DNA from: Saccharofermentans sp.
Lineage (GTDB): Bacteria; Bacillota; Clostridia; Saccharofermentanales; Saccharofermentanaceae
Direction of reading: 5' to 3'
NCBI GenBank assembly: GCA_016292145.1
Contig: JAEFBA010000022.1
Span: 1 to 32,374, forward strand
DNA: 32,374 bases
Made by a program: the position numbers and the translations under genes
Notes under the pieces: generated by a model
Told to the model about the DNA's origin: nothing
What the model saw: only the letters and a program-made list of their open reading frames with translations
The model's database searches: none
Shown: piece after piece, positions 5,083 through 29,404 of the stretch
Numbering within the stretch: the first letter of the stretch is position 1
How the letters are laid out: the number at the start of each line of letters is the position of its first letter

Positions 5083-6327
5083 TCAGGCTTCTTTAGTGAT
5101 AATGCCGCCGTCGACCTTATAGAATTCGGTCTTATTTGCGCCCTCTATCGCATCGATCTCTTCGCCGATCATATTCTTATCCGTGCACGTGATGAAGATC
5201 TGGGCACCCTTCATGGCCTGTACAAGGCTTAATCTCCTCGTCTTATCAAGTTCGGAGAATACATCATCCAGAATGAGTATCGGTGTAGAGGAGACGAACA
5301 TCTTGATTATCTCGAGTTCGGAGAGCTTCAATGCGAGCGCTGCAGTCCTCTGCTGGCCCTGGGAAGAGAACTTCTTCATCTCCAGGTCGTCTAATTTGAT
5401 CAGGATGTCATCCCTATGTATGCCGATGGATGAGATATGCTTCTCAATGTCGTAATTACGCACTGATTTCAGCTTGGCAAGGACCAGATCTGAGATAATG
5501 CCCTTTATACGCCCATAATCGCCCTCTGAGAGGCCTTTACCCATATAGTCGTCATATTTACTGTTTTTTGTCAGAAACGTTTCTAAGGCCCCTACAACGC
5601 CAAATACGGTATTGTACTCGATAGAGAGGTTTTCTTTGCCCCCTGAAATGCTTCCGTGATGCTTTGAGGCAGTATCAGAGATCAGCTTAGCGAACCTGTA
5701 GCGCTTTAAGATTATCTCTGCCGAAGATTCAGCCAGAGAAAAGTCCCAGAAATCAAGCTGCTGGTCCGTAAGATCTGATTTAGCATTCGGTTTTATGCTC
5801 TTAAGGAGTGCATTCTTCTGCGCCAGAAGCCTGCTGTAATTGGTCAGAAGATTGAAATAAGAAGGGGATACCTTCGATATCAGCGTATTTAAGAATTTAC
5901 GCCTGAAAGCCGGAGCATTTTTAACGATATTGAGGTCTTCGGGAGCAAAGATAACAATGTTACATATGCCGATATAATCAGAGATCTTATCTACCGGAGC
6001 ATTATCTGCGATAAGGATCCTTCCGGGCCTTCCTGATCTGCTCAAAGAAGACTTTTCGCTGTAATAGCCTGATACAAGATGAACATCGGATCCGTCATCA
6101 TCAGTAAGATCTAAGCCTGCTTTATATTCATTCTCACCGAACTTTATAAGGTCAGAATCCTTGCTGGTCCTGTGCGATGTGATACTTGAAGCAACATAGA
6201 TACCTTCAACGAGATTTGTCTTTCCCTGGGCGTTATTACCGTAAAAGATATTAACAGAAGGCCCGACATCCAAATCGAGCCTTCCGTAATTTCTGAAGTT
6301 TTCTAAATGTATGCTTCTTATGAACAT
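5083..6327 (-). CDS. recF: RecF recombination mediator
   Basis: An SMC-like ABC ATPase that with RecO and RecR loads RecA on gapped DNA. The N-terminal pattern MFIRSIHLENFRNY is diagnostic. Walker A GNNAQGKT is at 30-37, the ABC signature region SSQGQQRT at 321-328, and Walker B LILDD at 351-355 followed by VFSELD. It has 414 residues against about 370 in most species; the extra length seems spread through the middle (roughly 225-285). The start codon overlaps the dnaN stop (TAATG), and no strong ribosome site is visible, so translation is probably coupled to dnaN. Confidence 0.95.
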   Translation of the reverse strand: MFIRSIHLENFRNYGRLDLDVGPSVNIFYGNNAQGKTNLVEGIYVASSITSHRTSKDSDLIKFGENEYKAGLDLTDDDGSDVHLVSGYYSEKSSLSRSGRPGRILIADNAPVDKISDYIGICNIVIFAPEDLNIVKNAPAFRRKFLNTLISKVSPSYFNLLTNYSRLLAQKNALLKSIKPNAKSDLTDQQLDFWDFSLAESSAEIILKRYRFAKLISDTASKHHGSISGGKENLSIEYNTVFGVVGALETFLTKNSKYDDYMGKGLSEGDYGRIKGIISDLVLAKLKSVRNYDIEKHISSIGIHRDDILIKLDDLEMKKFSSQGQQRTAALALKLSELEIIKMFVSSTPILILDDVFSELDKTRRLSLVQAMKGAQIFITCTDKNMIGEEIDAIEGANKTEFYKVDGGIITKEA

Positions 6328-7442
6328 TATCTTCTGATAGGAAGAATAAGATAAATGTACTTCTCACCCTCAACAGGCTTGATAATGCAGGGTCCCTGAC
6401 CGCCGTTAACTTCGACCTTGATCTCTTCATCATCGATATTCTTAAGTACATCAAGAACATATCTTGAATTGAAATCTACATCTATAAGGTCACCTTCAAG
6501 ACTGATCGAGATATTCTCCTGGAGATTACCTCTTGCTGAAGTAGCCTGGACTGTAAGCTCTGAAGGATTATTTGAAAGGAATCTTACAGGGCACTTACGG
6601 TCGTCTGTCATGATGATGAGTGAAGCTCTGTCGACAGCATCAAGGAACTGCTTGCGGTTGATCGTGATGACTGTCTTAGGATTCTTCGTAATGATGGAAT
6701 CGAAATTAATGAACTGGCCTTCGATAAGACGTGAAACCATTCTTACATTGCCGATATCGAATAAGAGATTCTGCATTGATGTGTAGATATTGATCTCAGC
6801 ATCTTCGTCATCACTTAAGATCTTGCTCATCTCGGTAAGAGCCTTACCGGGAACGATATAGTTGATCTTAGGGAAGTCATTGCCCATCTCTTCGCGGTTG
6901 ATAGCCATTCTGAAACCGTCGATAGATACAACGGAAAGAACTGAACCGTCAGATACGATATTGGAACCTGTAAGAACAGGACGTGAATTATCACGTGATA
7001 CTGCGAAGATAGTGTGATTGATCATATTCTTAAGGATCTTCTGACCCATAACGATCTTCTCAGCGCTTGTCTCATCGATCTCAGGGATCTTCGGGAACGG
7101 CTCCGGGTCAAGACCAGCGATCTTGAACTCAGCCTGTCCGCACTTAATAGTTGTCTGGAAATTGCTGTCGGAAATGATATCTACTTCAGGCTCAGGAAGC
7201 TTTCTGATGATATCACCGAAGAACTTTGAATCGATAACAACAGCGCCCTTCTCAGTAACACTTGCTTCCACATCAGCCTCAATACCTGTCTGTAGATCGT
7301 AGCCCGTAAGCTTGATCTTATCGTCGTCTGACGCTTCAATGAGAATGCCGTTAAGGATATTTACTGTACTGTTAGTAGTAACAGCCCTCTGAACTATGGA
7401 TACATTATTAACCAAGTCATCTCTGCTGCATGTGAACTTCAT
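6327..7442 (-). CDS. dnaN: DNA polymerase III beta sliding clamp
   Basis: A ring clamp that tethers the replicative polymerase and binds many partner proteins. The 371 residues and the three-fold repeat architecture fit the family; recognisable pieces are the N-terminus MKFTCSRDDLVNNV, the middle SRPVLTGSNIV and the C-terminal end YLILPIRR. The start was moved to the ATG at 7442, because an AAAGGTGG site lies ten bases upstream and the family begins MKF; an upstream in-frame ATG would add seven unrelated residues. It is followed by recF with overlapping stop and start. Confidence 0.96.
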   Translation of the reverse strand: MKFTCSRDDLVNNVSIVQRAVTTNSTVNILNGILIEASDDDKIKLTGYDLQTGIEADVEASVTEKGAVVIDSKFFGDIIRKLPEPEVDIISDSNFQTTIKCGQAEFKIAGLDPEPFPKIPEIDETSAEKIVMGQKILKNMINHTIFAVSRDNSRPVLTGSNIVSDGSVLSVVSIDGFRMAINREEMGNDFPKINYIVPGKALTEMSKILSDDEDAEINIYTSMQNLLFDIGNVRMVSRLIEGQFINFDSIITKNPKTVITINRKQFLDAVDRASLIIMTDDRKCPVRFLSNNPSELTVQATSARGNLQENISISLEGDLIDVDFNSRYVLDVLKNIDDEEIKVEVNGGQGPCIIKPVEGEKYIYLILPIRR

Positions 7443-7737
7443 ATGAAGGGAGCCACCTTTCATTATTAATAAAATATTTCAAACATTATACACTGAAATA
7501 TATTAAAAATGTATAGTTTAACGGTGTTACAAAACTCGATTTTTAGGACATTTTCGAAAATCCCGATGACCGGCTCTGTAGTATTTAAAGATAGCTCGTA
7601 TTAGCCGTATTATGTTCTGTTCAAATGTTCAAAACCTGCCAAAAGTCCGTCTGTTCAGAGCATTTTTCGAAACATTACAATGTACAAAAGTCATTTGATG
7701 AGTGTTCACAAAAATACCCTTTTGAACATTGTTACAT

Positions 7738-7746
7738 TTATACACA
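7738..7746 (+). promoter_or_regulatory. DnaA box TTATACACA
   Basis: Exact match to the general DnaA-box consensus TTATNCACA, inside the dnaN-dnaA gap. Confidence 0.65.
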
Positions 7747-7785
7747 ACACGTCTACATGAAATCTACAGCAAGTTATGAACAAAA

Positions 7786-7800
7786 GAACAATTATTGTTC
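7786..7800 (-). repeat. AT-rich inverted repeat just after dnaA
   Basis: GAACAATTATTGTTC, seven bases mirrored around one central T, ends 4 bp past the dnaA stop. On the minus strand it is followed by TTTT, so it could be a weak dnaA terminator. Its right arm is also one of the TGAACA-type repeats. The spacing does not match a LexA box (four bases needed between GAAC and GTTC, seven here). Confidence 0.4.
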
Positions 7801-7803
7801 AAA

Positions 7804-9138
7804 TCAGGTAATGTGCTTATAAATCTCTTCAGCCTGCTTTTTGAGTTCAGGATCCTCATCTACGTTGTCGCAGCCGTGCATAACTGTAGTGTGTTTACGG
7901 CCGCCGAAGATCTGTCCGATCTTCTCATATTTTAGTTCCAGATAATCTCTGCAGATGAACATGGCAACATTACGTGCAGTGGATATCTCGGCACTTCTGA
8001 GCTTGGAAGTAAGCTTATCAGGCGTCAGATCGTAGTAATTAGCCACTGCATTGATGACTATATCAGGTGTCAGATACTTCTTATTTCCGCTTACCAGAGG
8101 ATCAACGATCTTTCTTATATCATCTAATGTGAGCTCTCCGTTTGCGAGAGTTACATAAGAGGAAATAGTATTAAAAGCACCATTGAGCTGTCTGATATTG
8201 GTGGTTACGTTCTCGCAGACATAGTCTATTATCTCGTCTGAAAGATTGAAGGACTCGCTCTCGAGCTTGCTTAAGAAGATAGCCTTACGTGTCTCAAAAT
8301 CCGGAGGCTGGACATCGAACATGATGCCGTCCTGGAATCTTGAGGTAAGCCTGCTGTTAAGCTCTGTGAGGTTTGCAGGTGCCTTGTCGCATGTAATGAC
8401 GATCTGCTTTCCTGATTCGATCAGGGCCTCGAAAGTATTAAAGAACTCTGTCTGGACACTGTCCTTGCCGATGAGGAACTGGATGTCGTCAATAAGGAGG
8501 ACATCTACGGTCCTGTATTTATTACGGAATTCCGTGTAATTCTTATTCTGGATGCATGCGATAAAAGCATTCGTGAAGGCTTCACATGTTGTGTAGATGA
8601 CTTTCTTCTCGGGATGCTGTTCGATTATCGCATTGCCTATAGCCTTCATGAGGTGGGTCTTGCCGAGACCGGAGTTGCCCCAGAGGAAGAAGGGGTTTCT
8701 CTGCTTCTGGCCGGGCTTAGCAGCAACAGATACGGCTGAAGCATGTGCAAAACGGTTGCAGTCGCCTACTACGAAGTTCGCGAAAGTAAACTCGCCGTTA
8801 AGTCCTGAAGGAGTAACGACCTCAGTCTTTGCCTGGCTTGCTGCCTTCTTCTCGGAGATTATGGAAGCATTAAGAGCCTTCTCATCGCCCTGAAGGATAA
8901 ACTTAACTGCGCAGGATTTACCGTCGTTAGCTGTCTTAATGGCGGATTCGATGGTCTTATTGAGCTTTTGACCCTTAAGAAGATCCAGAGAATACTCGTC
9001 TCTGGCAGCGAGAACAAGGACATCCTTGTCACAGTGAGCGACCGTCATCTTGCAAAGGATAGAGTCGTAGGTAATGGTATTTATATTTGAATCATACTTA
9101 AGAAGATTGAGAGCATTCTCCCAAACTGAACTCTCCAT
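7804..9138 (-). CDS. dnaA: Chromosomal replication initiator DnaA
   Basis: An AAA+ protein that binds origin boxes and opens oriC. The 444-residue form starts at the ATG at 9138 with GGAGGGG upstream. Numbered from that start: domain I about 1-85; a short linker domain II; AAA+ Walker A GNSGLGKT at 154-161, Walker B LLIDD at 214-218, and sensor regions; DNA-binding domain IV about 355-444 with FGGRKHTTVMHG. Domain IV departs from the usual pattern: the normal ARPRQ is STARN, and the residue before HTT, Asp in Escherichia coli (D433, a known DNA-contact residue) and most bacteria, is Lys. It is transcribed away from sortase-purA. The usual upstream neighbours rpmH and rnpA are absent. Confidence 0.96.
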   Translation of the reverse strand: MESSVWENALNLLKYDSNINTITYDSILCKMTVAHCDKDVLVLAARDEYSLDLLKGQKLNKTIESAIKTANDGKSCAVKFILQGDEKALNASIISEKKAASQAKTEVVTPSGLNGEFTFANFVVGDCNRFAHASAVSVAAKPGQKQRNPFFLWGNSGLGKTHLMKAIGNAIIEQHPEKKVIYTTCEAFTNAFIACIQNKNYTEFRNKYRTVDVLLIDDIQFLIGKDSVQTEFFNTFEALIESGKQIVITCDKAPANLTELNSRLTSRFQDGIMFDVQPPDFETRKAIFLSKLESESFNLSDEIIDYVCENVTTNIRQLNGAFNTISSYVTLANGELTLDDIRKIVDPLVSGNKKYLTPDIVINAVANYYDLTPDKLTSKLRSAEISTARNVAMFICRDYLELKYEKIGQIFGGRKHTTVMHGCDNVDEDPELKKQAEEIYKHIT

Positions 9139-9169
9139 GTAACCCCTCCGTAACAAAAATGACGTGCGT

Positions 9170-17626: not shown

Positions 17627-18700
17627 ATGCCGGTATTTAAAGATAATCTTCGAGGAACATGGTATGTGATGGCAAGGTATACCGCATATAACGGTGATCA
17701 TAAGCAGAAGTGCAAAAGAGGATTTATTACCAAGAGAGAAGCGATGGCCTGGGAGCGGGAATTTCTTCTCGCTGACAGCGGAAATCTAAACATGCTCTTC
17801 AAGACTTTTGCGGAAGAATATCTCAACGAAATGAAGCCTCGTTTGAAATTGAATACTTTTTTGACAAAAAAAGCAATTTTCAACCGTTATCTGATACCGG
17901 ATTTTGGAATGAGGAGACTCTCTGAGATAACTCCCAAAGATATAAGAGAATGGCAAAACAGTATGCTGAGTCTTAGAGATGAAAATGGAAAACCGTTTTC
18001 AAGTTGCTATCTGAAAACAATTCATAATCAGCTTTCGGCGGCATTCAATTATGCTGTTAAGTTTTATGGTCTTCCTAGAAATCCAGCTGCATTAGCAGGC
18101 AATATGGGAAAAGAAGGAAAGACAGAAATGAAGTTCTGGACTCAGGAAGAATACAGAAAATTCTCTTATGCCATTATGGATAAACCGGCATCATATTATG
18201 CCTTTGAAGTTCTTTATTGGACTGGTATTCGCGAGGGCGAATTGTTGGCGCTGACACCGGGAGATTTTGATTTTGAGGCCAAAACATTACGGATCAATAA
18301 ATCATATCAAAAGTTAAACGGAAAAGATGTGATTACCAGTCCAAAAACTGTAAAAAGCAATCGAATTATTAAGATATCTGATTTCTTATGTGAAGAGATA
18401 AAAGATTATCTGTCTATGTTCTATCAACTTGATGATGACACTAGGATTTTCTCCGTCACAAAACACTTTCTTTTTAAGGAAATGATGAGAGGCTGCAAGA
18501 TCTCTGGTGTAAAGCGTATCAGGATCCACGATCTTCGTCATAGTCATATTAGTCTTTTGATAGACATGGGATTTTCTCCAGTTGCGATAGCGGAAAGAGT
18601 TGGTCATGAGAGTATCCATATCACATACAGATATGCACACTTATTTCCTACTATTCAGGACCAGATGGCAGATAAGCTGAATGAAACAAAGAGGTATTGA
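17627..18700 (+). CDS. int: Tyrosine recombinase (integrase) of element 1
   Basis: 357 residues. An N-terminal arm-binding domain (about 1-50, with KQKCKRGF), a SAM-like core-binding domain (about 55-150), and a catalytic domain with Arg202 (GIREGELL), His301/Arg304 (HDLRHSH), His327 (GHES) and nucleophile Tyr336 (RYAHLF). All five key residues are present, so it should be active. It most resembles the Tn916-type/phage integrases of Firmicutes. GGGGAG lies seven bases upstream. The preceding small gene and the guaA-end repeat indicate that it is the integrase responsible for insertion there. The element 2 integrase has the same length and residue register. Confidence 0.95.
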   Translation: MPVFKDNLRGTWYVMARYTAYNGDHKQKCKRGFITKREAMAWEREFLLADSGNLNMLFKTFAEEYLNEMKPRLKLNTFLTKKAIFNRYLIPDFGMRRLSEITPKDIREWQNSMLSLRDENGKPFSSCYLKTIHNQLSAAFNYAVKFYGLPRNPAALAGNMGKEGKTEMKFWTQEEYRKFSYAIMDKPASYYAFEVLYWTGIREGELLALTPGDFDFEAKTLRINKSYQKLNGKDVITSPKTVKSNRIIKISDFLCEEIKDYLSMFYQLDDDTRIFSVTKHFLFKEMMRGCKISGVKRIRIHDLRHSHISLLIDMGFSPVAIAERVGHESIHITYRYAHLFPTIQDQMADKLNETKRY

Positions 18701-18701
18701 T

Positions 18702-19037
18702 ATGTCACAAAAAGTATACGACGGACACGGACGATGGAGAAACAAGCATGTGACATTCCATATGTCCGAAGAGGAAGCGGAGGAACTCAACCGGGCAGTA
18801 GCTATGTCGGGTCTTAAAAAACAGGATTATCTCATTAGCAGAGTGCTCGAACGGGATATTACAGTGAATCCTAATTCCAGAGTATACAAATTGCTTCTTG
18901 AACAGATGCAGAGTGCTGTATCAGAGTTGAAGAACGCAATAGAAAACAACAAAGACATAGATCCTTATTTGAAGGAGACAGTTTATCTCATGATTGATAC
19001 TTTAACTCAAATGAAAGGAATATCAAAAAATGAATAA
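18702..19037 (+). CDS. RHH/MobC-like relaxosome accessory protein
   Basis: 111 residues from the ATG at 18702 (the int stop TGA is at 18698-18700, and AGAGG serves as ribosome site). The pattern VTFHMSEEEAEELNRAV followed by GLKKQDYLISRVL is that of ribbon-helix-helix MobC-type proteins: a beta strand, then two helices. A conserved C-terminal piece NSRVYKLLLEQ is shared with the truncated gene at 32052 of element 2. Likely DNA binding for mobilization or regulation. It overlaps the next gene by 8 bp, so the two are translationally linked. Confidence 0.7.
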   Translation: MSQKVYDGHGRWRNKHVTFHMSEEEAEELNRAVAMSGLKKQDYLISRVLERDITVNPNSRVYKLLLEQMQSAVSELKNAIENNKDIDPYLKETVYLMIDTLTQMKGISKNE

Positions 19038-20130
19038 AGACAAAAAAATAACTGCCCCGTTAAATGTTGTTGGCGCAACAAAGGAGCAGTCAAATTCAAA
19101 CAACAACTGTATTTTAAAGGAAAATAAGCCGGAAGACAAGATTTCAGGGTCTTTCTTCAGTTTTGGAGAGCTTATGGATGCAGATTTGCCTCGAAAAAAA
19201 GCCATAATTGAGAATCTCTTATATCCGGGAGTTTATATACTTGCGGGTGATCCGAAGGTCGGTAAAAGTTTTCTTGTATTACAGCTTTTGTATGGTGTAA
19301 GCAGAGGTGAACCGATATGGAATCTTGAGGTCAGAAAGGGCCGCTGCCTTTATCTTGCATATGAAGACGGTATGCAAAGATTACAGGATAGAACGGTAAA
19401 AATGTTCGGTGCTGATGCTATGAGCAATGATCTGTATTTCTCTACTGAAGCGATGAAACTTGATAATGGTCTTGAAAAGCTTATTTCTGACTTTATCAAC
19501 AAGGATAATAATCCCTGCCTTATTGTTATTGATACTTTCCAAACGACCAGAACAACAGCTGATTGTCACTATGGAAGTGATTATGAAGATATCAGAAAGC
19601 TCAAATCGCTGACCGTTGATAAAAATGTCTGCATTATTCTGGTACACCATTTCAGAAAAGAGATGGCTGACAACAACTTTGATCGAATTTCCGGTACTAA
19701 CGGTATTTTTGGTGCAGCAGATGGTGCTATAGCTCTTACCAGAAGCAAAGATGCAAGAACAGCTTTTATAGAGATTAGAGGAAGAGATCAGGTTGAGCAG
19801 AGAATTGAGGTTATGAGGAACAAGGAAACTCTAAGGTGGGATTTTGTTAAACGTGATACCGAACCTCTTCTTGAACCGCTCGATCCGGATATTGAAAAGA
19901 TTATTTCATTTATGAATCCGTTGCATACGAAGTGGAAGGGAACGGCTACAGAGTTATGCGAGACCCTGAATCTTCTAACCTCTCCCTATAGGCTCAAGTT
20001 GAAGCTAAATTGCAATGCTGACAGATTGGAATTGAACAACATTACCTTCGAAGCAGTAAAAAGATCTCATGACAGAATCATAGTTCTTTCATACTTCGAA
20101 AAGCGAAGAGTAATGAGAACAATTTCTTAA
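19030..20130 (+). CDS. RepA-like/AAA_25 hexameric ATPase
   Basis: 366 residues. Walker A GDPKVGKS is at 73-80 and Walker B CLIVIDT at 163-169, with VHHFRK near 205-210 as the sensor strand, and ISGTNGIFGAADGAI typical of the RepA/DnaB-like helicase family carried by plasmids and integrative elements. The N-terminal 45 residues are low-complexity. The C-terminus (about 285-366) resembles a small winged-helix replication domain. It probably unwinds the excised circle for replication or transfer. No separate primase or initiator gene is visible beside it. Confidence 0.8.
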   Translation: MNKDKKITAPLNVVGATKEQSNSNNNCILKENKPEDKISGSFFSFGELMDADLPRKKAIIENLLYPGVYILAGDPKVGKSFLVLQLLYGVSRGEPIWNLEVRKGRCLYLAYEDGMQRLQDRTVKMFGADAMSNDLYFSTEAMKLDNGLEKLISDFINKDNNPCLIVIDTFQTTRTTADCHYGSDYEDIRKLKSLTVDKNVCIILVHHFRKEMADNNFDRISGTNGIFGAADGAIALTRSKDARTAFIEIRGRDQVEQRIEVMRNKETLRWDFVKRDTEPLLEPLDPDIEKIISFMNPLHTKWKGTATELCETLNLLTSPYRLKLKLNCNADRLELNNITFEAVKRSHDRIIVLSYFEKRRVMRTIS

Positions 20131-20149
20131 AAATCCGAAGAGTAATAGG

Positions 20150-20221
20150 TTTAGCAAGCATCGTCTGTGTAGCCACACAGACACTTTAAGGGGGATCCCT
20201 TAAACCCCTGGCTTAGCTAAA
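20150..20221 (+). other. Candidate oriT / three-stem cruciform upstream of mobC
   Basis: Three nested pairings in 72 bp: outer TTTAGCAAGC (20150-20159) with GCTTAGCTAAA (20211-20221, one bulged A); GTCTGTGT/ACACAGAC (20163-20182, AGCC loop); TTTAAGGG/CCCTTAAA (20185-20204, GGAT loop). It sits directly before mobC-mobA, where oriT normally lies in MOBP systems. The nick site cannot be placed by eye. A cis-acting RNA is the alternative. Confidence 0.55.
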
Positions 20222-20236
20222 AAGAGAGGTAAGTTT

Positions 20237-20563
20237 ATGGTAAAACGCAACCGAGTAAGAAGCGAAGAAATAAAGTTTTTTGTTACCCCAAAAGAGAAGG
20301 AAGAACTCGATGCGAGAGTGAAAAAGTCAGGACTTACAAGAAGCGAATTTTTAAGAAAAGCTTCCAAGGGAGTCGTAATAAGGGAGAAACCTCAAGCTGA
20401 GGTGACCGATCTCCTGACAGAGCTCTCGCATCTGGGGAACAATGTAAACCAGATAGCACGAAAAGAGAATTCAGGGTACCGTCACAGCACGGAATTCCTG
20501 ATCGACTTGAGAGATGAAATCTACAAGTTGATAACAGAAATCAGAAAGAAGGTAATCTCATAA
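20237..20563 (+). CDS. mobC: MobC relaxosome protein
   Basis: 108 residues. N-terminal ribbon-helix-helix (EIKFFVTPKEKEELDARV, then GLTRSEFLRKAS), then the MobC signature LSHLGNNVNQIARK near 70-83. MobC proteins bind oriT and help the relaxase to open DNA. AGAGGT precedes the ATG. The stop overlaps the relaxase start (TAATG), a typical mobC-mobA coupling. Confidence 0.88.
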   Translation: MVKRNRVRSEEIKFFVTPKEKEELDARVKKSGLTRSEFLRKASKGVVIREKPQAEVTDLLTELSHLGNNVNQIARKENSGYRHSTEFLIDLRDEIYKLITEIRKKVIS

Positions 20564-21918
20564 TGGCAACAACATCTTTATGGAGTATAAGAGGAAATGT
20601 TGTCAAAGTAATCAACTATATCAAGAATCCGAAGAAAACGACACTTCCGGCAGGCATACTGCCGGAGGATGTCTCGGCGGATGAGGAAACTGAGACAGTA
20701 CATGTTTTGGTTGATGCAATCAACTGTTCTGTTAAAAATGCTGCTCAAGACATGAACACACTTAAAGAATACTTTGGCAAGACCGGTGGAATAACCGCAT
20801 ACCATGGGTATCAGTCTTTCGCACCGGAAGATGATATTACTCCTTTACAGGCCCACGATATTGGTATGGAGTTAGCCCAGGAACTCTGGGGTGGAAAATA
20901 CCAAGTTCTGGTTGCTACGCATTTGGATAAAGATAATCACATTCATAATCATTTTGTAATCAATACTGTTCCGATTGATGGTGGTAAGAAATTCTGTCGA
21001 ACAAAACAGGACTATATTGATATGCGGAACTACAGTGATGCTCTCTGTGTGAAATATGATCTTTCTGTTTGCAAAACCTCCGGAAAAGGCAAGAATTATG
21101 GAGAATATAAAGCCGAGCTCGAAGGGAATCCTACTATCAGATCTACAATTAGAGCTGACATTGACAGAGCAATTGCGGCTTCGGGCTTCAACTATGATTT
21201 CTTCGATAATATGAAAAGACTGGGTTATGAAGTATATCTTTATAACAGTAAAGGTGAACCGCTAGTTCATCCTAAGCTTAAACCTTATGGAACTCAAAAA
21301 TGTTTCCGTTTTGATAAGCTTGGCCCTGGATATGATTTTCCGGAGATCAAAGAACGTCTGCGTTCACCTGACAGGATATACGGACGATTATTTCCACCTC
21401 CGCCAAAGAAGATCCGGCGAAGTTTCAGATATCATGAACCAAGGTTCATCTGCTCGTCTTACAGATATTATGGACGTATTCTCAGTATGCAAATCAAAAG
21501 ACCTGGTTATATAAGGCGTATACCATACTATCTTAGGGAAGATATTGCAAAGATAGAGCGTTTTGAAGAAAAACGACGTTTTGTAAGCAATCGAGGACTT
21601 AAATCCTATGAGGATGTTATTTCATATAAGGCTTACTTACAAGAGGAATTATCGTCACTTCGCAAACAAAAAAGAGATCTATATATCAGGGCATCCAAGG
21701 AAGAGAAACTTGGAAACCCGGGATACGCATATATTTTTAGATTATCAGCTAAGGAAAAAAATGAAATGATGCGTGATCTTCGGAAAGAAATCAGACTTTG
21801 TAATGATATTCTTAGTGAGTATATGGAAATCAGAGAAAAGTGTCTGGAACTTAGAATCCTGATTGTGTTTGAGCATCAGGAACAAATAAGAGGACTACAG
21901 CGAAAAAGAGTCAGATAA
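20563..21918 (+). CDS. mobA: MOBP-family relaxase (MobA/VirD2-like)
   Basis: 451 residues. It would nick oriT and stay covalently bound to the transferred strand. Candidate catalytic Tyr19 (VINYIKNP), motif II HGYQSF near 81-86, and the three-histidine motif with His120, His126, His128, His130 and Asn134 (HLDKDNHIHNHFVIN). The C-terminal half is basic and coiled-coil-like, without a fused helicase. All motifs of an active relaxase are present. Because coupling and secretion genes are missing, transfer would need a resident conjugative system. Confidence 0.9.
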   Translation: MATTSLWSIRGNVVKVINYIKNPKKTTLPAGILPEDVSADEETETVHVLVDAINCSVKNAAQDMNTLKEYFGKTGGITAYHGYQSFAPEDDITPLQAHDIGMELAQELWGGKYQVLVATHLDKDNHIHNHFVINTVPIDGGKKFCRTKQDYIDMRNYSDALCVKYDLSVCKTSGKGKNYGEYKAELEGNPTIRSTIRADIDRAIAASGFNYDFFDNMKRLGYEVYLYNSKGEPLVHPKLKPYGTQKCFRFDKLGPGYDFPEIKERLRSPDRIYGRLFPPPPKKIRRSFRYHEPRFICSSYRYYGRILSMQIKRPGYIRRIPYYLREDIAKIERFEEKRRFVSNRGLKSYEDVISYKAYLQEELSSLRKQKRDLYIRASKEEKLGNPGYAYIFRLSAKEKNEMMRDLRKEIRLCNDILSEYMEIREKCLELRILIVFEHQEQIRGLQRKRVR

Positions 21919-21939
21919 TCTTTCTTTTATCCCCGCCGG

Positions 21940-21975
21940 CCGTGACTTGAGGGGTTACGTCTCCTCAAGTCATGG
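21940..21975 (+). repeat. 13-bp stem-loop after mobA
   Basis: CCGTGACTTGAGG (21940-21952) pairs with CCTCAAGTCATGG (21963-21975, one G.U), 10-nt loop. No T-run follows, so it is not a standard terminator. The next 170 bp (to 22150) hold short repeats around TGTTCT and CTCAC but no gene that I can support. Confidence 0.5.
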
Positions 21976-22150
21976 GTGGCAATCCAAGCGGTAGCGCGGA
22001 AGGATTAGAAACGTGCAGTAATGGAGAGTTGTGAAACGGTGAGTGTTCTAAACTCACAGAGTTTTGAATGCTCACTGTTCTCAACTCGTAATGATATTTG
22101 TAGTATTATTATTCTGTGAATATCTAATTTTGAAGTTCGATGTTGTAATG

Positions 22151-22180
22151 TTTACAAAAAGCAAATATCTAATGTATAAT
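22151..22180 (+). promoter_or_regulatory. Promoter of the DUF3800 leader RNA
   Basis: TTTACA (22151-22156), 18-bp spacer, TATAAT (22175-22180). It initiates near 22187, just before the first of three hairpins. Confidence 0.65.
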
Positions 22181-22190
22181 ATCTTCAAGA

Positions 22191-22272
22191 AAGAAGCAGC
22201 AATGCTTCTTGGGCTGACCGAAAGGTCCGGGTCCACCTACAGGCGCTGGGAACCGGCGCCATTTTTATTTTA
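22191..22272 (+). ncRNA. Three-hairpin leader RNA upstream of DUF3800
   Basis: Hairpin 1 AAGAAGCA/TGCTTCTT with GCAA tetraloop (22191-22210); hairpin 2 GACC/GGTC with GAAA tetraloop (22216-22227); hairpin 3 GGCGCTGG/CCGGCGCC with a GAA loop (22242-22260) followed by ATTTTTATTTTA, which looks like an intrinsic terminator 10 bp before the gene. Published comparative surveys describe several DUF3800 RNA motifs in front of DUF3800 genes; this is probably one of them. Which subclass, and whether it is a cis-regulator or a partner RNA, cannot be told here. Confidence 0.75.
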
Positions 22273-22282
22273 TAGGTAAGAT

Positions 22283-22975
22283 ATGACTTCTAAAAAGCAT
22301 GAGAAAATTCTAAGTTGTTTTATAGATGAGACTGGTGATTTCGGCGAGTACGATGCTCGCTGTCCATATTATATGGTTACGGCGGTTCTTCACGATCAAG
22401 ACGAGTCTATAAAAAAACAGCTTGATGGAATAGAACAATATCTTAATGATCTTGGTTATCCGCATCATGCGTTACATGCTGGTCCGCTTATTCGCAGAGA
22501 AGCAGATTATGAAAACATGACAATGGAAGAGAGAAAGAAACTTTTCAATCTTCTTTACAACTTTGCTAGAAAACTTCCTATCCATTTTATCTGTGCAAAG
22601 GTTAAGAAATCAGAATGCCGAGATTCCGATGAGCTTGATGCAAAACTTACAAAAGCAATAATGGCTGCGGTTTCTAATTCAAGAGAATACTGGGATTCTT
22701 TCGATAAGATCATAATCTACTATGATAACGGCCAAAAGGCATTAAAACGCGTTTTGAATATTACTTTTAATAGCCTCTTCTCTGATGTCGAAGTTCGCAA
22801 GGTGCAACCGGCTGATTACAGACTGTTTCAAGTCGCAGATCTGATTTGTACGCTTGAACTTACATTAGCGAAAATTGAGCAGGGTTCATTTTCCAAGACT
22901 GAAGATGCATTTTTCCATGGTGCACATGAATTCAAAAAAGAATACTGGCGAAAGATAAAAACTAAAGAGCTATAA
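22283..22975 (+). CDS. DUF3800 family protein
   Basis: 230 residues. The N-terminal CFIDETGDFGEY is the family hallmark (acidic residues on a first strand, RNase H-like fold proposed), followed by YYMVTAVL, a mid-region acidic IIYYDNGQ and the C-terminal QVADLICTLEL. DUF3800 genes are frequent in mobile and defence islands, and nuclease activity is suspected for the family. The ribosome site is weak (AGGT), consistent with control by the leader RNA. No partner gene is fused or overlapping. Confidence 0.85.
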   Translation: MTSKKHEKILSCFIDETGDFGEYDARCPYYMVTAVLHDQDESIKKQLDGIEQYLNDLGYPHHALHAGPLIRREADYENMTMEERKKLFNLLYNFARKLPIHFICAKVKKSECRDSDELDAKLTKAIMAAVSNSREYWDSFDKIIIYYDNGQKALKRVLNITFNSLFSDVEVRKVQPADYRLFQVADLICTLELTLAKIEQGSFSKTEDAFFHGAHEFKKEYWRKIKTKEL

Positions 22976-23040
22976 GATTTTTAAAATACTTCGTCTTTAA
23001 TAGATTATCAGCGTATTGGATCTGATTCCTATTTTTGTGG

Positions 23041-23090
23041 TTGACAAGTGTATACTAACAGAGTAACATCGAAGTATACAGATGTATACT
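23041..23090 (+). promoter_or_regulatory. BlaI-type promoter and operator
   Basis: Promoter: -35 TTGACA (23041-23046), 17-bp spacer, -10 TAACAT (23064-23069). Operator 1: AGTATACA-GA-TGTATACT (23073-23090), a perfect inverted repeat over the expected start point. A second TGTATACT half-site (23049-23056) lies in the spacer with a degraded left half over the -35. The core TACA/TGTA matches BlaI/MecI operators, so the repressor gene downstream probably controls itself here. Confidence 0.8.
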
Positions 23091-23106
23091 AATTGTGGAG
23101 GCCAGT

Positions 23107-23466
23107 ATGATCAAGTTGTCAGATGCCGAGTGGAAGATCGTAACATGCTTATGGGATAAAGGTTCCATGACTATTGCCGAGCTTACCAAGTTCTTCAGTA
23201 ATGATACGGGTTGGTGCAGAAATGCGATAATCACGCTCCTTAACCGTATGGAGCAGAAAGAAGCTGTTGGCTATACAAGAGAGAACAGAACCCGTCGGTA
23301 TTTTGCCAAGATAGACAGGACCGAAGCAGAACTTGAGGAGACTACTTCGTTTTTGGACAAAGTATATAACGGCAAAGTCGGTCTTATGATTACCAATCTG
23401 ATCAAATCTGAGAAATTATCCAAGGAAGAGATCGAGGAGCTGCATAAGATATTAGAGGAGAACTGA
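23107..23466 (+). CDS. blaI: BlaI/MecI-family repressor
   Basis: 119 residues from the ATG at 23107, with GGAGG five bases upstream (a GTG at 23095 overlaps that site and is rejected). Winged helix: LSDAEWKIVTCLWDKGSMTI at about 3-22 and NAIITLLNRMEQKEAVGY as recognition helix and turn; the C-terminal helices for dimerisation end in EEIEELHKILEEN. Family members are cleaved when the membrane partner senses a signal. It is followed after one base by the M56 gene. The gene symbol is by family; the inducer is not known to be a beta-lactam. Confidence 0.88.
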   Translation: MIKLSDAEWKIVTCLWDKGSMTIAELTKFFSNDTGWCRNAIITLLNRMEQKEAVGYTRENRTRRYFAKIDRTEAELEETTSFLDKVYNGKVGLMITNLIKSEKLSKEEIEELHKILEEN

Positions 23467-23467
23467 T

Positions 23468-25504
23468 ATGCTTCGCTACTTTTTGGGGTTATCTCTGTTA
23501 ACTGCATCAATAATTGCTATCAGATTCTTTGCGGATAAAAAGATCAGCAGGAAGTTTCAGTATGCTTTATGGCTCCTGATACCAATTTACATGTGCATAG
23601 CACCATTTTTTACAATAGATGTTTCGTTGCCGGCAAAAGAAATCATTATTCAAGAACAAGTAATAGAAACATATGAAGTATCGGATGTTAATGCTGTTGA
23701 AGGTATTCCTCTGCCGATACAAAACAGTTCTCCAGATGAATCGGAAGCCGTAGCATCTGAGAAGAAATCTATTGATTGGCCTGTATTGATCCGCAACACT
23801 TCGTTGATATTATCAGGCGCATTGATAGTTGCATTGGCCGTATATAATACAGGTTTTATTCTCTATTGCAAACGGAAAAGACAATTTATAAAACGGGATT
23901 CACAATATGGTCTTAGAGTATTTAAACTGGATCATCCGAGTGCACCGTTCCTGCTAGGGAATAGCATATATCTAAGCAATGAAGTTGCAGAAAGTGATAT
24001 GTCAGCATATGCCATATGCCATGAGTATTGTCACTATAAGCATCTCGATTATGTGTGGATCCTGATCCGTTATATCGTACTGGCGTTGAACTGGTTCAAT
24101 CCACTGATTTGGTATGCATTCAAATTAGTTGACGAAGATTGTGAATTAGCTTGTGATGAAGAAGTCATATTACAGCTTGGCGAAGAAAGGAAGATAGAGT
24201 ACGGGAAGGTGCTTTTAGCATTGCTTACCAGGGAAACTAAACGGAATTTCTATATATCTACAGCTATGAATGGTAAGGGAGAAAGCTTTATGAAAAAGAG
24301 AATAAAGAACATCAAGAATACAGGTAAACACAGTGTTTCTTCGATCATTGTTGCCGGAGTGGCAGCATTGGCTATGGCCGGTTGTTCACTAGTTGACGTT
24401 AATCAAGAGACTGTTGAAGTTTCAGTTCCCTCAACTGATATAGAGCAAAGTGAATCGTCGGATATCTTTGAATCTGTTCAATATATAGGCACATCAGAAT
24501 CATCAGCATATAATGACGGAGATTATTGGAGCCCGTATGGTTATTCATTATCTGATACAAAGTATGATTTTGGCGATTATTATGCTGAGATGCGCTCGTA
24601 TTATTTCGATGGGAACTCACTGGTTCTTTTATATGATGTTGTAAATTGTGATAACGAAAACGATGTTGTTATTACCACGACCACTGAAAAAGTTGAAACT
24701 ATATATTATCTTTCTAATAAGAGTAAAACCGATTCAGAAATAAGATATGGTATGAGAGCGTTGATCACTTTTAATGAGACTCATGAAGCTTGTGATCTGA
24801 TTATTGGTTCAAAAGACTCATCTGAAACATACAATTTACGATTGATAATGTTGGATAAATCAGCTATTCCGGATGTAGACAGTTACAACTCCGAAGAGAC
24901 GGAATTGCTTGATGGCTATTACACGGTATCTATGACATCGGAAGGTGAAGAAGGATCTTGTGCGTTCTATCCATGGACACAATTAGAAGTTGATAAAGAC
25001 TATTTGGCTTCGCTTACCGCAGGGCAGTCATTAGACCTGTCTGAATGGGATGGGTACAATAATGCAACCATAATTGATATGGGAACTATAGGTGTGGAAC
25101 CGTTTGCGTTTGCTGGAACGAACTATACTGGAGAATGCTTTAATATATCAACAGATAAGGGGTATATTAATTTTTGTAAAGTCGATGGATCCGATGCTTG
25201 GAAAGGGTTTACGACTACGGATCATCCATTGATCAAATACTATGATTTGATAAGTGTTGATCTCGCAAACGATTATAAAATATATGATGCATATACGCTT
25301 ATGAAATTACCCTCATCGGAAAAACCTGATATGTCATCTGCTGATTACGCAGCGGTTAAGAATTTTGCAGACACGGCATTGACTGAAGGCTTAACAGATA
25401 CTATCAATGATTTCTTTGATAAATGGCATTTTGACAGATATGATTTCACCGTGATCAAGATCGAAAACAATACGGTTACTGAAGTGTATTTCTGGGCGAA
25501 ATAA
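23468..25504 (+). CDS. BlaR1-like M56 membrane metallopeptidase with novel sensor domain
   Basis: 678 residues. Several membrane helices in the first half (about 1-20, 32-50, 108-133 and 195-215), zinc site HEYCH at 185-189 with Glu226 in CELACDEE, then a further hydrophobic segment SIIVAGVAALAMAG (about 291-304) ending in a lipobox-like AGC. The extracellular part (about 310-678) is acidic and lacks the SxxK and SxN motifs of penicillin-binding sensor domains, so the ligand is unlikely to be a beta-lactam in the usual way. It pairs with BlaI, which it would inactivate by proteolysis. No resistance gene follows; the regulated target may be elsewhere. Confidence 0.85.
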   Translation: MLRYFLGLSLLTASIIAIRFFADKKISRKFQYALWLLIPIYMCIAPFFTIDVSLPAKEIIIQEQVIETYEVSDVNAVEGIPLPIQNSSPDESEAVASEKKSIDWPVLIRNTSLILSGALIVALAVYNTGFILYCKRKRQFIKRDSQYGLRVFKLDHPSAPFLLGNSIYLSNEVAESDMSAYAICHEYCHYKHLDYVWILIRYIVLALNWFNPLIWYAFKLVDEDCELACDEEVILQLGEERKIEYGKVLLALLTRETKRNFYISTAMNGKGESFMKKRIKNIKNTGKHSVSSIIVAGVAALAMAGCSLVDVNQETVEVSVPSTDIEQSESSDIFESVQYIGTSESSAYNDGDYWSPYGYSLSDTKYDFGDYYAEMRSYYFDGNSLVLLYDVVNCDNENDVVITTTTEKVETIYYLSNKSKTDSEIRYGMRALITFNETHEACDLIIGSKDSSETYNLRLIMLDKSAIPDVDSYNSEETELLDGYYTVSMTSEGEEGSCAFYPWTQLEVDKDYLASLTAGQSLDLSEWDGYNNATIIDMGTIGVEPFAFAGTNYTGECFNISTDKGYINFCKVDGSDAWKGFTTTDHPLIKYYDLISVDLANDYKIYDAYTLMKLPSSEKPDMSSADYAAVKNFADTALTEGLTDTINDFFDKWHFDRYDFTVIKIENNTVTEVYFWAK

Positions 25505-25529
25505 CCGATAATCATTTTTAGCCAGGCAG

Positions 25530-25561
25530 GGAGGAAGAATCTTATGGGGAATTCTTCCTCC
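25530..25561. terminator. Bidirectional terminator between convergent operons
   Basis: A perfect 11-bp stem (25530-25540 with 25551-25561), 10-nt loop, followed by TTTATAATT on the plus strand. It serves the M56 gene (+) and the TIR gene (-). Confidence 0.8.
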
Positions 25562-25590
25562 TTTATAATTGCTGATTTTTGAAATACTAT

Positions 25591-26109
25591 TTATTCTGAG
25601 CAGAGTGCGTTTTTAATAGCGAGATAATTCCAATGCTTGATTCCATTTTCATAATAATACCCATTAATATGAGCACCACAATATCTTAATGTTTCGGGGC
25701 ATTTTGATTTAATTACAGCTGCGTAGTTATATATTACTAATATTTTTAGATTATCCCGTTTGGCCTTTTCGCATTCATACTGTATATAGCTTCTGTAATC
25801 TACATTACCACTTCTGTGACAACTTGCATGATAAGGATCGTAGCTGGAACAGTATTGGCAACTGCCTTTTGTTAAACTGGTTGTTTTTTCACCGGCAATC
25901 AAGACAAAAGTTTTAGAAGCGTCTAATCTTTCAGATAAAGATTTTTTGATGCTGCAATATAAGCTGGTATCTCGTGCCTGTGTTAACTCATGAGCATCAA
26001 TAAAGTGGAGTTTAAGATCATTTCTGTTATTCCATTCATAAAGTTTAGCTATTAAGTCTTGATCTCCAGTCCAATCTCCAGCTATGTAGGTTTTTGTGCG
26101 ATATGTCAT
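25591..26109 (-). CDS. TIR-like (ThsB/DUF1863-type) protein
   Basis: 172 residues. The order of segments matches ThsB-type TIR domains of Thoeris defence: strand TYIAGDW (7-13), strand LHFIDAH (34-40), RDTSLYCSIKKSLSERL then strand TFVLIAGEKT (67-76), and YIQYECEKAKRDNLKILVIYN (108-128; YIQYECEKAK holds the conserved Glu region). Such proteins convert NAD into a cyclic or conjugated ADP-ribose signal on phage infection. It has a Cys-rich insert with Cys84, Cys87 and Cys97 (CQYC...SCH) that may bind zinc. It starts by a 4-bp ATGA overlap with the macro gene. No homologue search was possible, so this assignment is by pattern. Confidence 0.75.
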   Translation of the reverse strand: MTYRTKTYIAGDWTGDQDLIAKLYEWNNRNDLKLHFIDAHELTQARDTSLYCSIKKSLSERLDASKTFVLIAGEKTTSLTKGSCQYCSSYDPYHASCHRSGNVDYRSYIQYECEKAKRDNLKILVIYNYAAVIKSKCPETLRYCGAHINGYYYENGIKHWNYLAIKNALCSE

Positions 26110-27197
26110 TTGTTTTTACCTCCTATAGATAATTGATTTGCTGCATCAGTACTAATAACAATAATTATTTTTCCATGAACTGTGGACGATTTATTGATTA
26201 GCTTTCTACTTAATAGATCAAAAGCTTCTTGATATGTAAGGCCTGCTCTAGAACGTCCTGTCCCTAACAATGGTATGTATAGCTCATAACCTTGTCCGTT
26301 AATATCATAAAAGTTCAATAGTTTATCGATAGCTTCTTCAATATATTGTGGGCAACTAACTGCACGATTATTTTCATCAAATATAGAAATTGCTAATAAA
26401 TAAAAGCAAGCATTATCATATACAACAGTTGCAATTGTACCGATAGGATACTCGCCATCATTGTTGCAATTACTATGACGATGTGACAGATCATCTAATA
26501 TTCGTTGCTTAACATCATCCATTTTCATGTTTCTTTTTTTTAGTCGCAATAACCATTCTCCATGAAGGGTTTCTCCTGAAACAAGTGGATTAGTTGTTTT
26601 TTCGAGTTTAGTAGATAGATGCGTGTCAAATTTAGTATTTACCGGTATAACGACAATGGTTTTCCTTTTTCTTCTATTTGCGAATGCATACTTAAAGATA
26701 TCTCCGGTAATTACTCGAATATAGCTGTTACCTCTATTCCAAATCGAAGTTGCTGTATTAGTTGAACTGATGTTATCTATTAGCATCGTTTTAAGCATTA
26801 TTGAGACAAAAAACTCAATATTATCTGAAATTGATAGCAGCAAGGTTTTCTCTGATTCAGAGAATGAAGTGTCGTTTGATAATTGACTTGTAAATAAATT
26901 ACGCAATTCTGGAAAGCGATTCTCGTTGATATACCTTTTATAAAAATCAGAAGAGGCCTCAATAAACTCAGGTAATCGTTCATTGTTAATTGATGCCTTA
27001 ACCAAAACAGGCGGTAGATTAATATGATTATTTACGATCTTGCTTGTGTAAGATTTGTCAAAGTAGAGTGATTCTTTACCATTTTTCATTTTCAGATCGC
27101 AAGTGTCTACGATACAGCTTATTGCTTCATTTAGAAGTTTTTCGTAGCTGCATTTTGCATATGGTTTCATAAGTCTTAGCCATTCGCCATAATTCAT
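26106..27197 (-). CDS. Macro-domain protein, candidate Thoeris type II-like effector
   Basis: 363 residues. The C-terminal macro domain (about 159-352) fits the DUF6430/ThsA-macro pattern: RVITGDIF, VIPVNTKFDTHLS (183-195), LHGEWL, YPIGTIATV, FYLLAISIFDENNRA and the ligand loop PLLGTGRSRAGLTYQEA (309-325). In described type II Thoeris this domain binds a TIR-made ADP-ribose derivative and is fused to membrane helices. Here residues 1-150 are predicted soluble helices with no clear membrane segment, so the effector part is different and unrecognised. GAGGA lies seven bases before the ATG. It is the first gene of a two-gene operon with the TIR gene. Confidence 0.75.
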   Translation of the reverse strand: MNYGEWLRLMKPYAKCSYEKLLNEAISCIVDTCDLKMKNGKESLYFDKSYTSKIVNNHINLPPVLVKASINNERLPEFIEASSDFYKRYINENRFPELRNLFTSQLSNDTSFSESEKTLLLSISDNIEFFVSIMLKTMLIDNISSTNTATSIWNRGNSYIRVITGDIFKYAFANRRKRKTIVVIPVNTKFDTHLSTKLEKTTNPLVSGETLHGEWLLRLKKRNMKMDDVKQRILDDLSHRHSNCNNDGEYPIGTIATVVYDNACFYLLAISIFDENNRAVSCPQYIEEAIDKLLNFYDINGQGYELYIPLLGTGRSRAGLTYQEAFDLLSRKLINKSSTVHGKIIIVISTDAANQLSIGGKNK

Positions 27198-27237
27198 AAT
27201 ATTTCCTCATAGTTTTTCTATAGCATAACAAATTGTC

Positions 27238-27255
27238 TGTCCCGATAATGGGACA
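27238..27255. promoter_or_regulatory. Inverted repeat upstream of the macro/TIR operon
   Basis: TGTCCC (27238-27243), a 6-bp centre GATAAT, and GGGACA (27250-27255). It lies 41 bp before the macro start in the divergent gap and could be an operator. No assigned regulator. Confidence 0.45.
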
Positions 27256-27262
27256 ATTTTCA

Positions 27263-27317
27263 CAAGCTTTCAACTTTCAACCCAAGCTTTCAACTTTTGT
27301 TCAACCTCTGTTCAACC
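27263..27317. repeat. Short direct repeats in the divergent gap
   Basis: CAAGCTTTCAACTT at 27263-27276 and 27283-27296 (20-bp period) and GTTCAACC at 27299-27306 and 27310-27317. TTCAAC recurs four times in 55 bp. Iteron-like; it may be protein-binding sites for the divergent cargo operons. Confidence 0.5.
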
Positions 27318-27350
27318 ATGCTAAAACGACGTTTAAACACACTGCAGATA

Positions 27351-27380
27351 TTCTGAACTCATAAATCTGAGAGATCAGAA
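27351..27380 (+). promoter_or_regulatory. Leader hairpin before the DUF4417 gene
   Basis: Nested pairing TTCTGA/TCAGAA (27351-27356 with 27375-27380) and CTCA/TGAG (27358-27361 with 27368-27371), ending about ten bases before the AAAGGAGG ribosome site. It may modulate translation of the DUF4417-toxin operon. Confidence 0.35.
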
Positions 27381-27403
27381 ATCTTTTAAAGGAGGATTCG
27401 AAA

Positions 27404-28129
27404 ATGGATCCCAAAGAAAATTTATCTGTAAGAGCGGGCTGTAAGGATGTATGGAATGCTTTTATGTTGCAGGGTGCTTCATTTTCTGAAAATGATATTC
27501 CGCTTTGTCCTACAACAGCAAATGAAATACCCTCAAGACTAATATCGTATGAAGAAGCAAAACATATACATAACTGCGAGTTAGAACGAGGCAATGCCAA
27601 CTACAAGGTTAATGCTTTTGTGCATTTCTACATTGATGATCAGGGGTTTGATGGAAAGAGGACAAGTATATGGACTTACCCTGACGTTGCTGAGAAGGTT
27701 TTATGTCATTATGACGGTATCATTGCCCCTGACTTTTCGACTTATTTGGATTTCCCTGATCCGTTGAAAAGATGGAATTACTACAGAATGAATAGTTTTG
27801 GTTATTGGTACGGTTCCACAGGGCATCAGGTTTATTGCAATGCCAGATGGGGTGCAAAAGACACCTGGAACTACTGTTTTGATGGAATCAGATCAGGTGA
27901 TCCTGTAGCAATTGGAACTGTTGCCAGCGGATTAAGAAGATTAGTTAATCGACCTTTATTTGAAGAAGGACTTTTTGAACTCGTCGCGAGAAAGCATCCT
28001 CCGTTTATTCTTGTATATGGTTCGGCAAACTATAAATGTTTTGATGCTATTAGGGAACAAGGTGTCAAGATTATCTCGTTTCCAAGCCAGACTTCCGAAG
28101 CATATTTGAGGAGGAAGTCTTATGAGTAA
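27404..28129 (+). CDS. DUF4417 family protein
   Basis: 241 residues. The family pattern is clear: FIDDQGFDG-like start of the core (VHFYIDDQGFDG), YDGIIAPDFSTYLDFP near 104-119, NYYRMNSFGYWYGSTGHQVY, then NYCFDGIRSGDPVAIGT and the terminal strand PPFILVYGS. DUF4417 genes are common on Firmicute phages and integrative elements, and their activity is not known to me. An AAAGGAGG site gives the start. It overlaps the next gene by 8 bp, so it is translationally tied to the deaminase gene. Confidence 0.85.
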   Translation: MDPKENLSVRAGCKDVWNAFMLQGASFSENDIPLCPTTANEIPSRLISYEEAKHIHNCELERGNANYKVNAFVHFYIDDQGFDGKRTSIWTYPDVAEKVLCHYDGIIAPDFSTYLDFPDPLKRWNYYRMNSFGYWYGSTGHQVYCNARWGAKDTWNYCFDGIRSGDPVAIGTVASGLRRLVNRPLFEEGLFELVARKHPPFILVYGSANYKCFDAIREQGVKIISFPSQTSEAYLRRKSYE

Positions 28130-28619
28130 ATCATATAGTTATTTGTTTTCTGGTACTAGAGGTTCTGTAACACATGATAAGTCTGTGATTAAGTCTGTTT
28201 CACACGGCAAACTTAAGTCTTGGGCCAAACATAAAATGGAAACGCTGAAGGGAAAAGCAAAGAGCAGTTTTAATACTGCATGCATAGTCTATGATGAAAC
28301 TACAGGAAAGTGTTATTATGGCAGAAACGGAGGTTACAACGCAGAGGGCTATGAGAAGAATCCAATACTGTTCGGTGATGATACACATGAAGGTATCCTT
28401 CCAAAGAACTCTCTTAACAAATTTCCTGTAGGAAATTGTGCTGAAGTTGATGCAATAAACAATGCATTAAATGATGGAGCTCAATTAAAGAATTTGCATA
28501 TTACAACGATCAATGCAACAAAGAAAAAATTCGGCACGTATAAACCTTCATGCGAAAACTGTAAACATACATTTAAAGGTAAGGTTAAAGAAAACTACTC
28601 AGGTTGGGTAGAAGACTAA
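28122..28619 (+). CDS. Deaminase-fold toxin (polymorphic-toxin type)
   Basis: 165 residues. The C-terminal half shows the cytidine-deaminase-like zinc site: NCAEVDA (Cys106, catalytic Glu108) and PSCENC (Cys144, Cys147), with FNTACIVYDETTG as the first strands. The N-terminus MSKSYSYLFSGTRG is a short leader I associate with clostridial secreted toxins, with no signal peptide. YwqJ-type toxin deaminases act on nucleic acid or nucleotides of competitors. It is followed by a 179-residue acidic gene, fitting a toxin-immunity pair. A housekeeping CMP/dCMP deaminase is less likely, since the spacing and N-terminus differ. Confidence 0.7.
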   Translation: MSKSYSYLFSGTRGSVTHDKSVIKSVSHGKLKSWAKHKMETLKGKAKSSFNTACIVYDETTGKCYYGRNGGYNAEGYEKNPILFGDDTHEGILPKNSLNKFPVGNCAEVDAINNALNDGAQLKNLHITTINATKKKFGTYKPSCENCKHTFKGKVKENYSGWVED

Positions 28620-28637
28620 TAATAGGAGATTCATATT

Positions 28638-29177: not shown

Positions 29178-29194
29178 TTTGAGGAGAAATAAGT

Positions 29195-29250
29195 CATTAG
29201 TTCGAATAGGGATTGCTTATCCCTGTCCCCCTCAGAACCGTCCACTATCG
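29195..29250 (-). pseudogene. Possible group II intron 3' end remnant
   Basis: Read on the minus strand the segment contains ACGGTTCTGAGGGGG, followed by a small hairpin GGGAT/ATCCC and CTATTCGAA, similar to the domain V 3' half, domain VI and end of bacterial group II introns. The matching 5' half of domain V is not visible and no reverse transcriptase remains. Low-confidence relic. Confidence 0.3.
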
Positions 29251-29323
29251 TCTACAATTGTCTGTCATAGAGTGCAGAGAGCTTTTTGTCCATATCTGCC
29301 CTCAAGTGTTATCACGGTGATAA

Positions 29324-29404
29324 CCAGATGATATTGAAGCTGAAAAACAGTTGAGAGAAAAACGTGTTTTTGATAAAATCAGCACAACATCTAGAGGAAA
29401 ATAA
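29324..29404 (+). pseudogene. Possible 26-codon gene tail
   Basis: An open stretch ending TAA whose codons read like the charged C-terminus of a real protein (IEAEKQLREKRVFDKI core), with no start and a stop immediately upstream. It could be the remnant of a mobilization or regulatory gene cut off at the element boundary. Between 29178 and 29437 I see no intact gene. Confidence 0.25.

Follow-up and report, generated by a model that had tools for sequence, protein, structure and literature searches.

Putative TTWTGAACA DnaA boxes at the predicted replication origin of a Saccharofermentans-type rumen bacterium, and an accompanying Asp-to-Lys change in DnaA

Both the DnaA box and the protein residues that recognize it are taken to be almost universal, and programs that locate origins look for TTATNCACA with few mismatches. 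An essential initiator and its set of sites are hard to change one at a time. Have both changed in the lineage studied here? The question is raised by a window of 32,374 nucleotides (the whole stretch of DNA that was analysed) from a Saccharofermentans-type rumen MAG, whose genus consists of uncultured gut bacteria and whose nearest relatives by DnaA are MAGs from rumen and gut that bear the names Saccharofermentans or Ruminococcaceae. Its dnaA-dnaN gap holds a cluster of TGAACA sites, which an earlier note had read as shifted DnaA boxes. The open-licence literature yielded nothing on the origin of this genus or on TTNTGAACA boxes. On the comparisons given below, the region from 7464 to 7803 is very probably oriC and the TGAACA sites its DnaA boxes, in a lineage-specific form, TTWTGAACA, that replaces TTWTCCACA. 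The box shift, from the TTATCCACA type to TTATGAACA, and the change from Asp to Lys in DnaA seem to have evolved together.

The genes on the minus strand lie in the order parB, parA, gyrB, recF, dnaN, dnaA. dnaN (6327 to 7463, minus strand) was recognized from its open reading frame and from the order dnaA-dnaN-recF-gyrB, and served as the query with which the gaps of relatives were bounded. The intergenic region between dnaN and dnaA (7464 to 7803) has a GC content of 30%. Both skews, GC and AT, reverse their sign within the interval from about 7 to 9 kb of the window. In a relative with 400 kb on one contig (G017), cumulative GC skew reaches its minimum at 88,402, dnaA lies at 87,259 to 88,590, and the densest 300-bp window of TGAACA starts at 88,611, 209 bp from the skew minimum. 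Thus, in this lineage at least, skew maps the origin to this locus, and the refuting outcome named in the earlier note, a skew origin elsewhere, did not arise. Like other origins of the dnaA-dnaN type, the region adjoins both genes at the GC-skew switch and, for the shifted consensus, contains several boxes in both orientations at a higher density than the rest of the genome. Next to the last boxes, a block reading ACATAATA-GGCTAATA-GAGCTA-CTTTAAATACTAC (7570 to 7617, minus strand) is conserved in the alignment of close relatives. It is AT-rich and lies at the expected place of a DnaA-trio or unwinding element; no clear trio was seen in it, and it might be an unwinding element or a diverged DnaA-trio. 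Elsewhere in the window, beside guaA, two similar tyrosine-integrase genes (17627 to 18700 and 30940 to 32049) flank relaxase-like genes (20237 to 21918); judged from its open reading frames, the segment from 17627 to 32049 resembles a mobile element that has integrated near the origin.

All seven TGAACA sites that had been listed between 7618 and 7804 were found at their positions and on their strands, inside the dnaA-dnaN gap. Four are strict matches to TTNTGAACA (7626 to 7634 and 7703 to 7711 on the minus strand, 7720 to 7728 and 7774 to 7782 on the plus strand), and the other three have a TGAACA core but weaker flanks (two are ATTTGAACA, one is CTCTGAACA). Their conservation was counted in the dnaA-dnaN gaps of 26 close relatives. 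Directly after the dnaA stop codon, putative box 1, ATTTGAACA (7796 to 7804, minus strand), has its TGAACA (7796 to 7801) in 25 of the 26; canonical gaps of the same family show TTTTCCACA or TTATCCACA at the same place. Its inverted partner 22 bp away, putative box 2, TTATGAACA (7774 to 7782, plus strand), has TGAACA (7777 to 7782) in 12 of 26 and TGCACT, TGAACT or TGCACA in the others, and the corresponding partner lies at +23 in canonical relatives. TGAACA is invariant (26/26; 7723 to 7728) in putative box 3, TTTTGAACA (7720 to 7728, plus strand), and nearly so (25/26; 7703 to 7708) in putative box 4, TTGTGAACA (7703 to 7711, minus strand). Putative box 5, also TTTTGAACA (7626 to 7634, minus strand), keeps it in 23 of 26 (7626 to 7631), and the weaker putative box 6 in tandem with it, ATTTGAACA (7618 to 7626, minus strand), in 12 of 26 (7618 to 7623). 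At the CTCTGAACA site (7652 to 7660, minus strand), TGAACA (7652 to 7657) is present in 2 of 26; thus this site was not counted as a box, and is probably neither functional nor conserved. For its part, a weak box-like 9-mer, TTTTGTACA (7681 to 7689, minus strand; TTTTATACA in most relatives), occupies a conserved place in the alignment, which suggests a role for it.

The single classical box noted earlier, TTATACACA, is indeed present at 7738 to 7746 (plus strand). It is a degenerate site, kept in classical form in 2 of the 26 relatives and reading TTGTATACA, TTATAAACA, TTGTACACA, TTGTGAACA and so on in others. Over the gaps of the 26 relatives, mean identity was 0.91 in the TGAACA columns versus 0.81 in the rest of the gap (Mann-Whitney p = 4.6e-4, with columns that are not independent). 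The sites retain the TTWT of the classical consensus at positions 1 to 4 (in Lys433 genomes T1 0.66, T2 0.88, W3 0.84; T4 is fixed by the search pattern), and the conserved ones read AACA, not CACA, at positions 6 to 9. The putative boxes differ from TTWTCCACA at two positions, with G in place of C5 and A in place of C6. The region would work like a canonical oriC without conforming to the classical box consensus.

What of the protein that would read these sites? dnaA (7804 to 9156, minus strand) has 450 codons from a TTG, the Met at codon 7 being the more likely start. Its product matches Pfam Bac_DnaA and Bac_DnaA_C and B. subtilis DnaA (8btg, E=7e-86), and has the AAA+ ATPase and the domain IV helix-turn-helix of a DnaA; in place of the Asp433-His434 signature it carries Lys-His. 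The recognition helix reads GGRKHTTV versus the canonical GGRDHTTV. The lysine is Lys421 (codon AAA, 7894 to 7896, minus strand), to which the Asp of 8btg aligns; residue 76 of a domain IV model lies at residue 433 of E. coli 1j1v by aligned range. The model (pLDDT 87) resembles DNA-bound 1j1v (Z 16.8, 89 residues) and Mycobacterium 3pvp (Z 15.7), and predicts that the lysine sits at the start of the recognition helix. By DnaA comparison, Glu411 (codon GAG, 7924 to 7926, minus strand) is the equivalent of E. coli Pro423, and the Arg399 equivalent, Arg387, is retained. Asp433 is reported to be highly conserved among bacteria (PMC8235120), and P423, D433 and others to be conserved in all Firmicutes (PMC7561715). 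The rarity of Lys433 was gauged with a DNA pattern for F-G-x-x-Lys-His-x-Thr. Among about 378-391 genomes of the class its only matches in DnaA proteins were those of this genus, and among 397-398 genomes of the phylum the window was the only match, at a sensitivity of about one half, since the Asp version of the pattern detects 51 of 99. Three further matches in other class genomes lay outside DnaA and were discarded as chance hits.

The association of box type with residue 433 (E. coli numbering) was followed through 154 distinct dnaA-dnaN gaps of the order, from four families; loci with identical gaps were merged across two genome collections, and near-identical strains may remain. TxyACA sites were scored if T stood at position 1 or 2, with the reversed pattern as control. 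At least three TGAACA per gap were present in 53 of 57 Lys433 gaps and 6 of 9 with Thr or Ser, but in none of those with Asp (0/49), Asn (0/33) or His (0/6). Asp433 gaps carry TTWTCCACA or TCAACA instead. Genomes with Lys433 and Thr435 averaged 4.32 GA-type sites per gap (control, 0.11), those with Pro423 and Asp433 3.1-3.5 CC-type sites, and those with Asn433 and Ala435 2.3 TA, 1.6 CA and 1.4 TC sites. The top 6-mer was TGAACA (z 36) in 25 divergent Lys433 gaps and TCCACA (z 51) in 42 Pro423/Asp433 gaps. In the members of the genus that keep Asp433 (L121-L123), the sites are TCAACA. One of these, L123 (G113:C10:10615-11961), has one internal TGA reported in its dnaA, a sequencing error or a real change. 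In one family (f2; L074-L077, L144-L165), whose DnaA has Asn433 and Ala435, the gaps abound in TTAACA, TCAACA and TTCACA, which adds a third box type to the order. One locus (L070, G051) breaks a simple residue rule: it keeps Pro423 and Asp433 (GNRDHSTV), yet has eight TCAACA and one TCCACA with a T flank. The His433/Glu423 lineages keep TCCACA, and with these and L070 as exceptions a strict rule by which residue 423 sets box position 6 was dropped. A second DnaA-like protein, 39% identical and with a C terminus lacking GGRxHTTV, is encoded at L092 (G008:C5:83431-84474) and is possibly a diverged paralogue.

Does residue 433 cause the shift? The sequence case that it does is moderate, and the cause unproven. 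Tentatively, residue 433 may set box position 5 (Asp with C; Lys, Ser or Thr with G; Asn plus Ala435 with T), which would give the initiator and origin of this genus at least some orthogonality to the canonical pair; on this tentative reading, the Asn433 type (TTAACA/TCAACA), the third in the same order, would represent intermediate steps. The chemistry could fit, as lysine could donate to G and aspartate accept from C. A maximum-likelihood tree was built from 42 DnaA bodies lacking domain IV; on it, G or C at position 5 splits perfectly by Lys/Thr/Ser (27) versus Asp (13). On the same tree an independent-pairs test found one contrast and was without power, and the phylogeny yields only one or two independent switches; thus, the association could reflect shared history. 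The choice between two separate gains of Lys433 and a return to Asp in L121-L123 hinges on the uncertain place of L067/L068 in the tree.

With a single independent contrast, there is a serious possibility, somewhat short of an even chance, that the TGAACA sites are DnaA boxes whose switch was driven by other parts of domain IV, such as the change from Pro423 to Glu, or by joint drift, with residue 433 a bystander. Position 423 changed in the same lineages. TGAACA also occurs in Thr/Ser433 genomes, so that Lys is not strictly required for it. In Epsilonproteobacteria box position 5 became T while residues 433-434 are described as a conserved pair (PMC5043019), and the published contact of Asp433 is with box position 7 (PMC8235120), which is unchanged here and thus weighs against a causal Lys433. 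A bystander role is, however, at odds with the pattern within the genus, where C5 (TCAACA) goes with the Asp433 clade and G5 with the Lys433 clades, position 423 being non-proline in both.

Whatever drove the switch, flanks and layout point to DnaA as the reader of the sites. The flanks [G/C]TTWT are common to TGAACA (Lys433) and TCCACA (Asp433/Pro423) sites, with A depleted at position 0 and W at position 3 in both kinds; T1 and T2 are 0.79 and 0.84 in canonical TCCACA sites, against the TGAACA values given above. The box directly after the dnaA stop codon is TGAACA in 43 of 57 Lys433 gaps, and canonical gaps of the same family have TCCACA at +8 after the stop in 7 of 26. An inverted partner follows 22 bp on (once 23) in 15 of the 43 and 23 bp on in all seven canonical cases. 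Swapped controls gave zero in both directions. L123, with Asp433, has TTTTCCACA at +7 and TAATCAACA 22 bp beyond. Given the common flanks, the common layout and the confinement to the gap, we read the TGAACA sites as DnaA boxes. The comparison of gaps among relatives that the earlier note had proposed thus supports its shifted boxes, through equal flanks, equal layout and a matching change in the recognition helix, binding itself being what we infer.

Other proteins also bind at bacterial origins. The TGAACA sites could on that account belong to another origin regulator while DnaA continues to use a small number of classical or degenerate boxes, such as the weakly conserved classical-like site that persists at 7738 to 7746. 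This we consider very improbable: the TGAACA sites are flanked as DnaA boxes are and laid out like the boxes of canonical relatives, their distribution tracks DnaA residue 433, and the classical box persists in 2 of 26 close relatives. Moreover, in Lys433 genomes the sites are absent upstream of dnaA (0 per kb in 350 bp), and no incA-like DnaA boxes of the TTNTGAACA type were found upstream of dnaA in 19.8 kb.

The earlier note's reading would not survive equal motif density elsewhere, and the counts show TGAACA concentrated in the gap. The genome has 1528 TGAACA in 2.70 Mb, so that 0.106 are expected in 187 bp versus the 7 seen (Poisson P = 2.7e-11). TTNTGAACA occurs 118 times (83 for the reversed control pattern), giving 0.015 expected in the 340-bp gap versus 4 seen (P = 2e-9), and no second comparable cluster was present among the 100 of its 118 matches listed. 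In Lys433 genomes, the density of the motif was 8.33 per kb in gaps, 0.01 within dnaA and 0.09 over the initial kb of dnaN. A chance cluster in AT-rich DNA, for which the low GC content of the gap might speak, has a negligible probability and is refuted by dinucleotide shuffles of the gap (mean 0.51 TGAACA, maximum 4; 0 of 5000 reaching 7) and by the recurrence of at least three TGAACA in 53 of 57 Lys433 gaps. Outside the origin, TGAACA pairs with 11-bp spacing were observed in the window at 2327 to 2346 (downstream of gyrB) and 27298 to 27317. A second TTTTGAACA cluster, in a relative (G007, C5:100388-100528), was rejected, as it consists of 33-bp repeats coding for a PFVQNNN protein repeat.

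Taken as the DnaA boxes of this origin, the sites suggest the following mechanism. DnaA domain IV would bind each box through its usual helix-turn-helix, Arg387 reading the TT half, which is conserved, from the minor groove, and the N terminus of the recognition helix reading the ACA half. Through the changes of Asp433 to Lys and of Pro423 to Glu (Lys421 and Glu411 in the window), GA may have replaced CC as the preferred bases at box positions 5 and 6. Multiple DnaA molecules would assemble on the box array and melt AT-rich DNA towards dnaN.

If so, the true boxes of this genus would rank as weak in finders that use TTATNCACA. Canonical, switched and intermediate forms, the last being TCAACA with Asp433, are all represented in the order, and thus the path of change is testable. 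For laboratory work on DnaA recognition, the locus also suggests an initiator-origin pair whose specificity is altered.

In comparison with known systems, the region shares with the canonical oriC (TTWTNCACA; E. coli, B. subtilis and C. difficile) the dnaA-dnaN gap, several boxes in both orientations, the skew minimum at the site, the TTWT half and ACA end of the box, and the domain IV fold of 1j1v. It differs in positions 5-6, GA here versus CC or NC there, and in its DnaA, which has Lys433 and Glu423 in place of the Asp and Pro reported to be conserved throughout the Firmicutes (PMC7561715). As in the oriC of Epsilonproteobacteria (Helicobacter and Arcobacter), a lineage-specific change at position 5 accompanies changes at the N terminus of the recognition helix (PMC5043019); there, however, position 5 is T, CACA is kept and the Asp/His pair is described as conserved, whereas here the box has G5 and A6 and Asp433 is replaced. 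In Thermotoga maritima, too, the box (9-mer ACCTACCAC) diverged together with domain IV residues (PMC10316083, PMC7561715), but that box is wholly different, while here the shift amounts to two bases in the classical frame.
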